Assembly (NCBI GenBank): GCA_030681075.1
Contig: JAUXUE010000078.1
Span: forward strand, 1 to 6,889
Source: Candidatus Amesbacteria bacterium
GTDB taxonomy: Bacteria > Patescibacteriota > Microgenomatia > CAZETR01 > Amesbacteraceae
Direction of reading: 5' to 3'
Length of the DNA: 6,889 nt
Under the pieces are notes generated by a model. The model did no database searches. It was not told where the DNA came from and saw only the letters and a program-made list of their open reading frames with translations. Positions 1,066-6,164 of the stretch are shown here, in pieces (within the stretch, counting starts at the first letter, position 1; every line of letters begins with the position of its first letter). A program made the translations under genes and the position numbers.

Positions 1066-1338
1066 TTATTTTACTGCCTTTTTGAGAGACTTGCCTGGAG
1101 TAAACCTAGCAGCCCGGTGGCCTTTGACAATCTTTCTGATCTTGGTTCCAGGAATAATTACTGGCTTGTCTTTGACAGAGACTACTTTGAAAGTTCCAAA
1201 TCCAGACAAGACTACTTTTTCACCTTTGGACAAGGCTCTCTTTACTTCTTCCAAAAAAGTATCCACGGCATCGCGAGCAGCTTTCTTGGTCAAGTGCGCT
1301 TTGCGCGCTAATAATTCAAACATTTGTTGCTTGGTCAT
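1066..1338 (-). CDS. hup: HU-family DNA-binding protein
   Basis: A 90-residue histone-like protein of full HU length that binds and bends DNA as a dimer to organise the nucleoid. The N-terminal helical dimerisation part (1-45) leads into the family signature SGFGTFKV (45-52). The DNA-binding beta-arm follows, then FTPGKSLKKAV (79-89), equivalent to the F-x-x-G-K-x-L-K end of other HU proteins. Counting from GFGTF, the arm has the same length as in E. coli HU. The intercalating proline is kept as P63, but the usual tip NPxTG reads IPGTK. The gene has its own candidate promoter and a GAGAGGTGG ribosome binding site about 12 nt before ATG, one of the few good ones here. It is followed after 5 nt by an ABC permease gene. 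The family call is secure; whether it works as HU or a more specialised IHF-like factor is open. Confidence 0.95.
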   Translation of the reverse strand: MTKQQMFELLARKAHLTKKAARDAVDTFLEEVKRALSKGEKVVLSGFGTFKVVSVKDKPVIIPGTKIRKIVKGHRAARFTPGKSLKKAVK

Positions 1339-1383: not shown

Positions 1384-1412
1384 AAATTAATTCATTGTTC
1401 GTCATTTGTCAA
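1384..1412 (-). promoter_or_regulatory. Candidate sigma-70-type promoter for hup and the ABC permeases
   Basis: On the minus strand a perfect -35 hexamer TTGACA (1412-1407) is followed after 17 nt by TAATTT (1389-1384, 3 of 6 matches to TATAAT). Initiation about 7 nt further on would give a leader of roughly 40 nt containing the ribosome binding site. The -35 and spacer sit inside a 10-bp dyad (1390-1420), so this promoter could be controlled by a dimeric protein. The weak -10 lowers certainty. Confidence 0.5.
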
Positions 1413-1420
1413 CAATGAAT
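1390..1420. repeat. 10-bp perfect inverted repeat over the hup promoter
   Basis: ATTCATTGTT (1390-1399) and AACAATGAAT (1411-1420) are exact reverse complements separated by 11 nt. The centres of the arms are 21 bp apart, two helical turns, as expected of an operator for a dimeric regulator. The right arm and the loop cover the -35 element of the candidate hup promoter. With only two G/C pairs per arm and no T-tract, it makes a poor terminator. It also abuts the outer end of the repeats flanking the GxxExxY gene and might belong to that element. Confidence 0.6.
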
Positions 1421-1436
1421 AAAACTAATGACAACA

Positions 1437-1467
1437 AATTTAAACTAATACTAACGAATCAATCTGA
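1437..1467. repeat. Left arm of the inverted repeats flanking the GxxExxY gene
   Basis: Positions 1437-1459 match the reverse complement of 1846-1868 at 20 of 23 bases; the three differences are adjacent (1450-1452). The next 8 bases, CAATCTGA (1460-1467), pair exactly with TCAGATTG at 1826-1833. The arm contains the stop codon and last codons of the GxxExxY gene. A looser outward match (1414-1426 against 1869-1883, two bases missing here) extends it. Read on the minus strand, 1455-1416 is four 10-bp units: GTTAGTATTA, GTTTAAATTT, GTTGTCATTA, GTTTTATTCA. Confidence 0.8.
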
Positions 1468-1847
1468 GGATTAATGATTCTACGATAAGTTAAACGAGGG
1501 GTGCGAAAGTTGGCAATAATTCCTAATGGCAACTTACTCGATTTTAAATAAGAAATAACTTGACCGATATAATCTGGGGTTATTCTTAGGTCAGTTTTGG
1601 TTTCTAAAACAATTTTTTGATCTATAACAAAATCCAAGAAATGCTTTCCTACTTTGATATCTGAATATTCTACATCAACTGAAACTTCTCTTTGAAAATT
1701 TATATTTTGAATTATAAATTCTTGCTCGATAGCTCTTTGGTAATATTTTTCTTGGTATGAAGAACCCAATTTGGAGTGTACTTTAAATAGTACGCCCATT
1801 ATTTTGTAACTCAATTCTGGATATATCAGATTGGCATTCGTTGCCAT
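1440..1847 (-). CDS. GxxExxY family protein (PD-(D/E)XK nuclease-like)
   Basis: A 135-residue protein of normal length for the GxxExxY family (TIGR04256, Pfam PDDEXK_3), small proteins with a nuclease-like fold and no settled function. The N-terminal helix KIMGVLFKVHSKLGSSYQEK carries the name motif in altered form: S30-x-x-E33-x-x-Y36 instead of G-x-x-E-x-x-Y. The nuclease-like core LDFVIDQKIVLETK (71-84) gives D72 and E82-x-K84 as candidate catalytic residues, followed by the usual Q-V-x-x-Y-L-K stretch (96-102) and a C-terminal GIIANF (109-114). By hand count the gene is about 31% GC, against about 50% in two 60-base samples of the RNase Y gene. It starts 31 nt after RNase Y without a ribosome binding site, and both gene ends lie in inverted repeats. 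This suggests it arrived as a mobile or selfish unit. The family is clear; the activity is inference. Confidence 0.88.
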   Translation of the reverse strand: MATNANLIYPELSYKIMGVLFKVHSKLGSSYQEKYYQRAIEQEFIIQNINFQREVSVDVEYSDIKVGKHFLDFVIDQKIVLETKTDLRITPDYIGQVISYLKSSKLPLGIIANFRTPRLTYRRIINPQIDSLVLV

Positions 1848-1868
1848 TCGTTTTAATTAGTTTAAATT
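1826..1868. repeat. Right arm of the inverted repeats flanking the GxxExxY gene
   Basis: This is the partner of the left arm: 1846-1868 matches 1437-1459 in inverse orientation (20/23) and 1826-1833 matches 1460-1467 exactly (8/8). The arm has 12 extra bases (1834-1845) holding a near-duplicate, AACGAATGGC/AACGAATGCC on the minus strand. These could fold as a small TGGC/GCCA hairpin. The arm contains the start codon of the GxxExxY gene, so in the mRNA the start region could pair with the stop region. The outer part continues as three 10-bp units (GTTTTAATTA, GTTTAAATTA, GTTTTAAATT; 1850-1879) up to the RNase Y stop codon. Confidence 0.8.
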
Positions 1869-1878
1869 AGTTTTAAAT

Positions 1879-3045
1879 TCATTTAGCTTTAGTGATGTCT
1901 GTTGTCCGCACTTCGCGAATGGCTGTCACTTTGATCTGTCCTGCATACTGGACTTGCTTTTCCAGCTGCTCGCGGATCTTGGCGACGAGAACCGTCAGCT
2001 CTGAATCGGAAACCAATTCCGGCCGGACAATTATCCGGACTTCCCGCCCCGCTTGGAAAGCAAAAACTTCGTCTACACCCTTGAAAGACTTACCTATCTC
2101 CTCGATCTGTTTCATACGCTTGACATAGGCATCGTGTGGTTCATAGCGGGCTCCAGGACGTGATCCTGATATAGCATCAGCAATCCAGACGATTCTAGAT
2201 ACCGCGGAAGAAAATGGCTTGTCTTCGTGATGCTCAGCGACTGCAGCAATGGCAATAGGTGATATATTGTGTTTTTTTAATAATTCTACTCCCAGCTGAA
2301 CATGTGTACCTTCCTCGTCTGTTACCACTTTGCCTATATCGTGCAATAGACATCCAAGTCTGACATTTTCCAGTTCTTCGTCCGACAAGCCCAAATCAGA
2401 GGCAATCTGAACACCTATTTTGGTTTCTTCAATTGTATGAATTCCAAGATTCTGGCCATAAGAAAATCTGAAACGATATTTACCAATCATCTTGACTAGA
2501 TCGGCATCGAGATTAAAGACTCCACAAGCTGCACAAATTTTGTTGCCTTCTTCGACCAAGACCTGATCGACTTGTTTGCGGGTTTGTGTGACTACGTCTT
2601 CGATTCTGCCTGGATGAATTCTGCCATCTTTCATTAAAATATCCAGACTACGGCGGGCCACCTCACGCCTCACTGGATCAAAGCTCGAAAGCCTGAGTGA
2701 ATTGCCCTCTTCCATCTCGATTTCGACTCCAGTTGCTCTCTCAAAAGCGGCAATATTTCGTCCCCCTTGGCCAATAATAGATCCCTTGGCTGAATCATTT
2801 GGTAATTGGACAATTGAGACCGAATATTCGGCTGTATAGCTGGTCGCCCCGTGAGCCATAGCATCCACCAAAATGTCCCGAGCTATTTCAGATGCGCGGG
2901 TTGTATAATCTTCACGGGCTTGATTGAGTCTCTGGGCCAAATCATCGGCCAAATCTTTCTCGACTTCTTCTAGTAATAACTTTTTGGCTTCGTCCCGGGT
3001 AAGCGAGGCTGCTTTTTCTAATTTTTTGATATAATCATCTCTCAT
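1879..3045 (-). CDS. rny: Ribonuclease Y, short form without membrane anchor
   Basis: RNase Y is an endoribonuclease that starts mRNA decay. The protein has a KH domain with GSIIGQGGRNI (88-98), then FDPVRREVARR (122-132). The HD domain follows, with SYGQN (195-199), H203, the HD pair in LLHDIGK (233-239), the HHED stretch (272-275) and the hallmark IADAISGSRPGAR (288-300). The C-terminus ends in a conserved AIREVR stretch. At 388 residues it is much shorter than the usual 510-520. It begins in the last part of the coiled coil (LLLEEVEK) and lacks the transmembrane helix and most of the coiled coil. An in-frame TAG lies two codons before ATG, so no upstream extension is possible. The usual LQHS motif after GQN reads GIHT. 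The start overlaps the recX stop as ATGA, implying coupled translation. The product would be cytosolic unless recruited by a partner. Confidence 0.93.
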   Translation of the reverse strand: MRDDYIKKLEKAASLTRDEAKKLLLEEVEKDLADDLAQRLNQAREDYTTRASEIARDILVDAMAHGATSYTAEYSVSIVQLPNDSAKGSIIGQGGRNIAAFERATGVEIEMEEGNSLRLSSFDPVRREVARRSLDILMKDGRIHPGRIEDVVTQTRKQVDQVLVEEGNKICAACGVFNLDADLVKMIGKYRFRFSYGQNLGIHTIEETKIGVQIASDLGLSDEELENVRLGCLLHDIGKVVTDEEGTHVQLGVELLKKHNISPIAIAAVAEHHEDKPFSSAVSRIVWIADAISGSRPGARYEPHDAYVKRMKQIEEIGKSFKGVDEVFAFQAGREVRIIVRPELVSDSELTVLVAKIREQLEKQVQYAGQIKVTAIREVRTTDITKAK

Positions 3046-4504: not shown

Positions 4505-4532
4505 AATATAACTCTTAATTGACAAATTGCAA
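4505..4532 (-). promoter_or_regulatory. Candidate recA promoter with a very short leader
   Basis: The minus strand shows TTGCAA (4532-4527, 4/6 match to TTGACA), a 16-nt spacer, and TATATT (4510-4505, 4/6 match to TATAAT). Transcription would start near 4498, leaving only about 4 nt before the recA ATG. The site overlaps elements of the divergent membrane-protein promoter. Confidence 0.45.
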
Positions 4533-4533
4533 G

Positions 4534-4562
4534 TGGATAAATATTTTTGTCTGGTATATACT
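4534..4562 (+). promoter_or_regulatory. Candidate promoter for the membrane-protein gene, near-leaderless
   Basis: TGGATA (4534-4539, 4/6 to TTGACA), a 17-nt spacer and TATACT (4557-4562, 5/6 to TATAAT) would place +1 at about 4569, one base before the ATG at 4570. An alternative is the perfect TTGACA at 4519-4524 with TATTTT at 4542-4547, giving a leader of about 16 nt without a ribosome binding site. Either way the promoter lies back to back with recA. Confidence 0.45.
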
Positions 4563-4569
4563 AATCTTA

Positions 4570-5262
4570 ATGCTTTATTCATTTGGACTAATCAAAGAAA
4601 GTTTTCGGATACTTTTTAAAAATATTGTTTATTTACTTAAGTTCTGGCTTTTTAGACTTGGTATACTTATTCCCCTACTTATTCCCTTGGGAATCGGAGC
4701 GTTTTTTTCTGGATTTCTCCTCTCCTGGCCACTCGTAGTTGGTGGAATCGTCACTCTTATCTTGACAGTTGTTTATGGGATATGGTTTTCGGCTTCGACT
4801 TTTGTAGTTACAAAATCCATGGTCGACAATGAAATTGTCCCCATAAAGACTCTCGCACAAAACAGCTGGCATCAGATGGGTAAGATATTGTGGACCAGCT
4901 TTTTGTCTGGTCTAATAATAGCCTTGGGAATTATTCTCTTGGTTGTTCCGGGAGTAATCTTTGCTTTCTGGTTTTATTTTGCAATTCAAGTGGCACTCTA
5001 CGAAAACCTGAGTGGCAAAGCTGCTCTCTTGAGAAGTAAGGCACTAGTTAAGGGTCATTTTTGGTGGTTATTAAAGAATTTAGCAATTTATACTGGGGTA
5101 AGTTTACTCGTAAGCATGTTGTTTAGTTTTGCAGTGGGCTTAACACCACTTTCGGAAAATATCCAAAAAATAATTCTCTCTCCGATCAATATTATTGAGA
5201 CAACTATAGGAATGATTTATTCTTTCCTCCTTTACCGAGACTTGGTCAAATCAAGCCGATAA
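4570..5262 (+). CDS. Multipass membrane protein, DUF975/GPDPase membrane-domain-like
   Basis: A 230-residue, very hydrophobic protein with about six membrane segments (roughly residues 30-50, 54-80, 107-127, 128-145, 168-190, 205-222) and no signal peptide. The middle section, LLVVPGVIFAFWFYFAI (123-139) then ENLSGKAALLRSKALVKG (145-162), has the 'VPG-hydrophobic helix, then S-G-x-A-L-x-R-S-x-x-L-V-K-G' layout of DUF975 and glycerophosphodiester phosphodiesterase membrane-domain proteins. Their biochemical role is largely unknown. I chose ATG 4570 over an in-frame TTG at 4519. That TTG lies inside a TTGACA promoter-like hexamer, and the 17 residues it would add are unsupported. ATG 4570 lies just after a good -10. 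The gene is divergent from recA and converges on the 63-codon ORF with only 23 nt between stops and no evident terminator. The family assignment is moderate. Confidence 0.82.
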   Translation: MLYSFGLIKESFRILFKNIVYLLKFWLFRLGILIPLLIPLGIGAFFSGFLLSWPLVVGGIVTLILTVVYGIWFSASTFVVTKSMVDNEIVPIKTLAQNSWHQMGKILWTSFLSGLIIALGIILLVVPGVIFAFWFYFAIQVALYENLSGKAALLRSKALVKGHFWWLLKNLAIYTGVSLLVSMLFSFAVGLTPLSENIQKIILSPINIIETTIGMIYSFLLYRDLVKSSR

Positions 5263-5774: not shown

Positions 5775-6164
5775 TTAATCAATGTAGTGAGGGTTTAGAA
5801 GAGCATACAAATGACGTTTAGTATCACCCATATATGTGCTATATGCAATAAGGAATAAAAATGCTTCTCGACCAATACTACCAACAAGATTTTGTCTCGA
5901 ATCCTCGGGTTTAAAAATTACGCCAATTGCAGACGGGAAACTGGCAAGATCTTGTAAGGCCATCGTTCTCGAAACATTAATTGTGGATGGATTCAAACTT
6001 ATTGTTATGTCATATCCTCGTACTGGTTGATATTCAGAGAAAATCGATCCAGGAGAAAAAGTAATAGATGTCCCAGAGGGTTGGGATAATAGAAGTTTAG
6101 AAGCAACTCCGATATTTTTTTTGATGAGTAAGGACATATAAACAAAAAGGCTGTTTTCCACCAT
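5775..6164 (-). CDS. Hypothetical protein linked to rpsI
   Basis: A 129-residue ORF that I do not recognise. The sequence looks protein-like: a hydrophobic N-terminal part (SLFVYMSLLIKKNIGVASKLL), a serine- and proline-containing middle with alternating beta-strand pattern (SQPSGTSITFSPGS, 27-40; GYDITISLNPSTINVSRTMAL, 50-70), then ALQDLASFPSAIGVIF (69-84) and a more helical C-terminal part (AFLFLIAYSTYMGD, 101-114). There is no clear signal peptide or known catalytic motif. The start is 2 nt after the rpsI stop (TAA-AT-ATG), so it would be translated by coupling within the rplM-rpsI transcript. The 129-codon length in DNA of this AT content, and its exact placement after rpsI, favour a real gene. 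Ribosome association would be guilt by neighbourhood only. Confidence 0.6.
   Translation of the reverse strand: MVENSLFVYMSLLIKKNIGVASKLLLSQPSGTSITFSPGSIFSEYQPVRGYDITISLNPSTINVSRTMALQDLASFPSAIGVIFKPEDSRQNLVGSIGREAFLFLIAYSTYMGDTKRHLYALLNPHYID

Follow-up and report, generated by a model that had tools for sequence, protein, structure and literature searches.

We analysed a stretch of 6,889 nucleotides (nt) from a Candidatus Amesbacteria bacterium (assembly GCA_030681075.1, contig JAUXUE010000078.1), referred to below as the window, which is one 6.9-kb contig from a small genome comprising 636,582 bases across 105 contigs. On its minus strand lie, in this order, rny, a gene encoding a protein of the GxxExxY family and hup. 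The GxxExxY gene is bracketed by two inverted arms, and together gene and arms form a candidate mobile cassette, the subject of this analysis. Its parts and its immediate flanks are the following.

1440..1847, minus strand: GxxExxY gene, 135 amino acids, predicted PD-(D/E)XK nuclease (PF13366, TIGR04256, motif residues, structure model).
1836..1875, minus strand: 5' arm of the gene; units at 1866-1872, 1856-1862, 1846-1852 and 1836-1842; overlaps the start codon.
1420..1459, plus strand: 3' arm of the gene, in inverted orientation; units at 1423-1429, 1433-1439, 1443-1449 and 1453-1459; contains the stop codon.
1414..1419, plus strand: outer tip of the 3' arm and probable element edge; AATGAA, an inverted match to 1878-1883 in the gapped alignment.
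1878..1883, minus strand: outer tip of the 5' arm, from the gapped alignment; overlaps the rny stop codon.
1407..1412, minus strand: TTGACA, just beyond the element edge, from the comparison of empty junctions; presumably the -35 box of hup, judging by the consensus.
1879..3045, minus strand: rny (RNase Y), host flank; TIGR03319 at 424 bits, under the cut-off of 454.
1066..1338, minus strand: hup (HU-like DNA-binding protein), host flank; PF00216 at 80.8 bits.

Each arm is a row of four AACNAAT units in exact 10-bp steps, and the two rows are mirrored about the gene. The arms match each other because each carries these four units; the N may differ between them, and four looser AACNAAT matches, off register, are also present. 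In the 5' arm, the innermost unit falls within the GxxExxY coding sequence. A repeat search delimited the arms as 40-nt stretches (1420-1459 and 1836-1875) that are 78% complementary, and a gapped alignment spanning 1414-1449 and 1846-1883 scored 35, a value reached by 0 of 5000 dinucleotide-preserving shuffles (shuffle maximum 33). The original prediction, made from the letters of the window, had described inverted copies that continue inward as an exact pair and outward more loosely, with the start and stop codons of the gene inside the arms. Direct inspection bore out this description: 1437-1459 and 1846-1868 agree at 20 of 23 positions, 1460-1467 and 1826-1833 are exact inverted 8-bp copies, the outward match is part of the gapped alignment, and the gene starts at 1847 and stops at 1440-1442. 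The low GC content ascribed to the gene relative to rny was likewise recovered (approximately 0.30 across 1401-1800 versus 0.40-0.51 for segments within rny).

The encoded protein matched PF13366 (PDDEXK_3) at 98.5 bits (cut-off 22) and TIGR04256 at 102.2 bits (cut-off 35), and its catalytic residues are kept, in agreement with the PD-(D/E)XK-like core that had been proposed for it. PDDEXK_3 was its sole Pfam match and GxxExxY its sole NCBIfam match, and neither scan detected a known transposase domain (DDE, HUH, serine or tyrosine). Its structure model has a predicted local distance difference test score (pLDDT) of 91. To place the protein and its arms in context, we collected 169 loci, from which 108 near-full GxxExxY elements were retained; repeats of one gene and matches that covered under 85% of the profile were dropped, and broken copies are mostly outside the arm statistics. 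Residues E33, E82, K84, Q96 and Y100 were invariant and D72 nearly so across 86 GxxExxY sequences, and the active-site pattern E..D..ExK..QxxxY, which we take to be that of RecB-type nucleases, was present in 98 of the 108 elements, so the nuclease appears to have been kept functional. Comparison with solved structures by sequence gave nothing meaningful, and the protein had no match among 50,697 phage records, in PHROGs or among the PADLOC defence models.

Similar ends had been expected around GxxExxY genes at other loci. At a score of at least 26, inverted arms surrounded 90 of the 106 elements that had enough flank; the direct orientation reached this score in 6 of 106, and neighbouring control open reading frames (ORFs) did so in 7 of 197. 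The mean best arm score was 37.3 for inverted arms, against 18.6 for direct ones, 18.0 with other elements' flanks and 17.6 for neighbouring ORFs (n = 197). Autocorrelation of the arms peaked at 10 nt, and their units share the core YRCNRA(T/A): CNRAT occurred 453 times, versus a shuffle mean of 71 (maximum 95) and 69 occurrences in the opposite orientation, and 331 of 496 steps between unit cores measured 8-11 nt. The unit sequence itself varies by element, as in CCACAAATT (locus L142), GATCCGAAT (L025) and ACGAAACT (L089). A smaller arm scan, comprising the 34 of 39 unique loci under a flank and length filter, included a Margulisiibacteriota copy (L037) with arms (score 30) and L030. The latter and L023 belong to different families, and both follow a putative ftsH 3' end and have in common an upstream unit of a different kind, GATTAGCACATGA; their downstream genes differ, and L030 has an inverted-arm score of 17, that is, no arms by score. 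Arms also occur outside the phylum: among five plasmid-borne homologues, they were clear in Sphingomonas (43) and Bernardetia (36), weak in Treponema (22) and Gemmatirosa (22) and absent in Persicobacter (13).

Phased sites about one helical turn apart beside a start codon would look like operators, and the arms might accordingly serve self-repression, in the style of toxin-antitoxin or defence genes, with the gene spreading by ordinary horizontal transfer. However, 90 of 106 elements have the mirrored array past the gene as well, paired arms exist without any gene, a pair of copies within a single genome stop abruptly at their arms (both described below), and the PADLOC defence models are unmatched; we regard this explanation as highly improbable.

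Comparing the two arms of each element position by position, we found mismatches in 35% of columns at the N of the unit, compared with 4% at C, 7% at R, 0.3% at A and 5% at T. A free N within otherwise conserved units argues for units that are read as DNA sequence by a protein rather than kept for RNA pairing. It also bears on a further rival, in which the arms act in RNA, forming a stem that RNase III cuts, as happens with 23S rRNA intervening sequences, and the mobility of the DNA is a by-product. The predicted fold of the transcript does pair the arms, at -88.5 kcal/mol and a z of -2.0, and 2 of 100 shuffles did as well, although folding alone is weak evidence; rRNA intervening sequences also combine paired ends with a small ORF, according to PMC4990558. 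Yet pairing is not kept at N, and the insertions in LepA and RecG described below are open in frame on both sides, so RNA cutting there would destroy the host message. An origin of the arms in RNA processing is therefore very unlikely.

Arm sequence followed the nuclease. Protein identity and arm similarity were correlated (Mantel r 0.449; maximum of 999 permutations 0.108) across 3985 of 4005 element pairs; these 3985 have non-homologous flanks, and the 20 with homologous flanks were excluded. The mean arm score rose from 15.2 at 25-30% protein identity to 38.0 above 60%. At like protein identity, arms from the same genome showed no significant gain in similarity over arms from different genomes (four bins, p 0.099 to 0.68), in a comparison that included the 20 homologous-flank pairs and in which same-genome pairs were few (37, 34, 18 and 7). 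Thus, the arm code tracks the protein and not the host genome, suggesting that it belongs to the element. Genome G422 provides an example: its copies L142 and L144, with 80% protein identity, lie at unrelated sites and have sharp ends with perfect outer repeats, beyond which agreement drops to a few bases.

The same data help to assess whether the cassette might be mobile through a host transposase encoded elsewhere, for example Y1 (IS200/REP-type), with the nuclease as cargo. Y1-like genes matched in 12 of 14 genomes tested, with five matches in the window's genome, and the gene-less paired arms resemble REPINs (doublets of repetitive extragenic palindromic, or REP, sequences), whose spread is ascribed to Y1-type REP-associated transposases in PMC3116915. 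By contrast, G427 and G397 carry the element without a Y1 match in this test, which covered the Y1 family, and match counts for GxxExxY (fragments included) and Y1 were not correlated across the 14 genomes (Spearman -0.14, p 0.62). The arm code, moreover, tracks the nuclease and not the genome, and cassettes carrying a four-helix-bundle gene, some of which share genomes with these elements, have a different code. We consider movement by such a transposase unlikely.

The junction occupied in the window is empty in its relatives. rny is present in 13 of 13 other genomes of the window's family, and in all 11 relatives in which rny and hup adjoin, the junction carries no insert; the remaining two have another gene downstream of rny (G002) or a contig end (G012). 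The insert-free relatives include G001, of the same genus as the window, whose rny protein is 98.7% identical. In these empty junctions, TTGACA lies approximately 8-30 nt past the rny stop codon, placing the position of the cassette between the two; the stop codon is TGA in the window's genome versus TAA or TAG in the relatives read. GxxExxY genes are patchily distributed: they were found in 13 of 59 genomes, the window's own included, in 1 of 13 other genomes of its family (leaving out a below-cut-off match inside a long frame in G011), in 39 of 280 genomes of the class and in 45 of 286 of the phylum, with up to nine matches per genome. The Sphingomonas element sits between fabD and fabG, a junction that is insert-free in Sphingomonas paeninsulae and Methylobacterium bullatum. 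A selfish cassette lodged between rny and hup, as originally predicted, is well in line with this patchy occurrence, the empty junctions of relatives and the recurrence of its ends elsewhere, and on these comparisons the element is very probably mobile.

Some elements have settled inside genes. Of 14 genomes in one family, three carry the cassette in frame within LepA, after MEW (or MLY) and ahead of the strand that runs into DTPGH, and the gene is uninterrupted in the other 11; another cassette is in frame within RecG (L078). LepA with an in-frame nuclease domain ahead of the DTPGH motif is kept in three genera (L073, L074 and L075). In-frame GxxExxY fusions were also noted with an apparent pilin-like gene (L148), purN (L167) and ruvX (L168), named from their translations. 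Intein-like splicing of the LepA insert was considered and set aside, as the insert is in frame and GxxExxY was the sole match among the 25 of 29 families listed.

Related copies at one LepA site in three genomes, together with elements L076, L079 and L080, whose sites correspond across three genomes of a single genus, are a pattern that homing could produce, with the nuclease cutting a fixed empty target and repair copying the cassette in. However, flanks are non-homologous in 3985 of 4005 pairs, related elements are mostly at unrelated sites, and no common target is visible around the 89 elements with longer flanks; this variety of sites already largely refutes homing, which we hold to be extremely improbable. 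Nor did these 89 elements have a consistent target-site duplication (match rates outside the arms 0.26-0.34 for lengths of 1-15, with no clear peak), which extends to the family what had been remarked for the window, where none was obvious. Empty sites are too diverged from filled ones to fix the junction base. When G388 was compared with G440 and G476 of the same genus for a recent insertion, the corresponding spot held a different inverted-repeat element; between G422 and G442, L143 is absent in G442, and the downstream side is rearranged.

Arms also occur without the gene. In G388, those of L076 recur as inverted pairs of approximately 94-116 bp in four places (L259-L262). The search for such copies yielded arm matches in 12 of 20 fetched loci; pairing was analysed in 7 of the 20, and 4 of these 7 had paired arms of the L076 family. 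Arm-like stretches of the element neighbouring L076 also recur in G388, and no gene-less derivative of the window's own element was seen in its genome. Dispersed arm-like stretches of 28-40 nt from element L179-1 were observed at L263-L266 and L278; the one at L263 starts with CCTA and ends with TAGG, and a second lies approximately 100 nt further on. A separate repeat of approximately 130 bp, with a core of 23-26 nt, is present at dozens of places in the genus of G388, G440 and G476 (including L179:190-330). Inverted cores of this repeat bound positions of approximately 1130-1475 in L201, a spot that corresponds to that of a GxxExxY insertion in G388.

We favour the explanation that the GxxExxY gene and its AACNAAT arrays make up a mobile cassette, which inserted between rny and hup and was moved by its own predicted nuclease, the presumed reader of these units; that the nuclease is the mover, one of the options in the original prediction, seems probable, if well short of certain. 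As 10 bp is approximately one helix turn, several nuclease subunits could align on one helix face along each arm. An oligomer of the nuclease would then bring both arms together and cut at their outer ends, and host repair would join the released cassette or its copy to a new site. Joining of this kind would account for why no fixed target-site duplication is seen. Gene-less paired arms would be moved in trans.

A second protein family appears in cassettes of parallel design. PF05635 is a four-helix-bundle family known from 23S rRNA intervening sequences; of 192 genomes from the phylum, 111 had matches for its genes. Free-standing PF05635 genes had inverted arms at 22 of 28 loci in a first set (30 loci, of which two were lost to contig ends) and then at 14 of 20 further loci (L229-L258, L279-L298). 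One gene that failed the inverted threshold, L246, had a match of 43 in direct orientation versus 15 inverted. The units of these arms follow a 7-nt period, with autocorrelation values of 0.496 (lag 7) and 0.456 (lag 14), and their motif differs from that of GxxExxY. From arm sequence alone, a three-nearest-neighbour vote assigned the cargo class correctly in 110 of 112 cases (GxxExxY 90 of 90, four-helix bundle 20 of 22). The window's genome itself contains a PF05635 cassette with its own code (L279), at an arm score of 27, barely above the threshold. For comparison, PMC4990558 describes in the Coxiella burnetii 23S intervening sequence tandem heptamers ahead of the ORF and a 28-bp terminal stem, and terms the origin of rRNA intervening sequences unclear. 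We see an even chance that iterated-arm cassettes constitute a new class of transposable element, in which a small protein reads mirrored, phased units in separate codes (CNRAT at approximately 10 bp for GxxExxY, 7 nt for S23), and of which rRNA intervening sequences would be the copies residing in rRNA. The original prediction had called the window's element like an intervening sequence; this stands for its architecture and fails for its location, as the element lies between rny and hup rather than in an rRNA gene, and no Rfam match was found in the window.

Farther out in the window are putative recA and ribosomal-protein genes, named from their translations. Two frames had no Pfam match (4519-5262, plus strand, 247 amino acids; 5775-6164, minus strand, 129 amino acids).

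In the open-access literature, searched by title or abstract start with most subscription papers and bioRxiv outside its coverage, we found no description of iterated-arm cassettes among the matches listed, and GxxExxY was mentioned in passing only. If our explanation is correct, GxxExxY, a family known mainly by its motif name, would be what drives a self-contained mobile element of very small size, one that can even settle in frame within LepA and RecG, and a Cas4/RecB-like nuclease without a known transposase would join the ways of moving DNA. The heptad arms of the four-helix-bundle genes would give a testable answer on the origin of rRNA intervening sequences. Arm codes that drift with their protein would also provide, as a data set, naturally occurring pairs of proteins and the DNA they recognise.

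Several known systems share parts of this design. Insertion sequences and miniature inverted-repeat transposable elements likewise consist of one gene in terminal inverted repeats, with gene-less derivatives and patchy spread; unlike insertion sequences, the GxxExxY cassette has iterated ends and neither a known transposase domain nor a consistent target-site duplication. Rickettsia palindromic elements insert in frame inside host genes, as do the cassettes in LepA and RecG, where a whole nuclease domain is inserted. Within the PD-(D/E)XK superfamily, which also includes TnsA, an enzyme of transposition, GxxExxY has its fold and the E..D..ExK..QxxxY pattern in common with the Cas4/RecB/lambda-exonuclease branch, but it is a stand-alone domain of 135 amino acids, without helicase or iron-sulfur part, within its own bracketed cassette. 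We did not retain Cas4, Hjc or lambda exonuclease as functional equivalents, the likeness being limited to fold. REP sequences and REPINs with their REP-associated tyrosine transposases (RAYTs) are similar in having short inverted doublets and a cognate protein and in being dispersed in extragenic DNA, as described in PMC3116915; they differ from the present cassettes in that the cargo here is a PD-(D/E)XK nuclease rather than Y1 and the ends, in place of REP hairpins, have phased units in rows. Closest in layout is the 23S rRNA intervening sequence, which also measures approximately 0.4-0.5 kb, has inverted-repeat ends and one small ORF, and is called selfish in PMC4990558, whereas the window's element lies outside rRNA, encodes another protein family and is built from 10-bp rather than 7-nt units.
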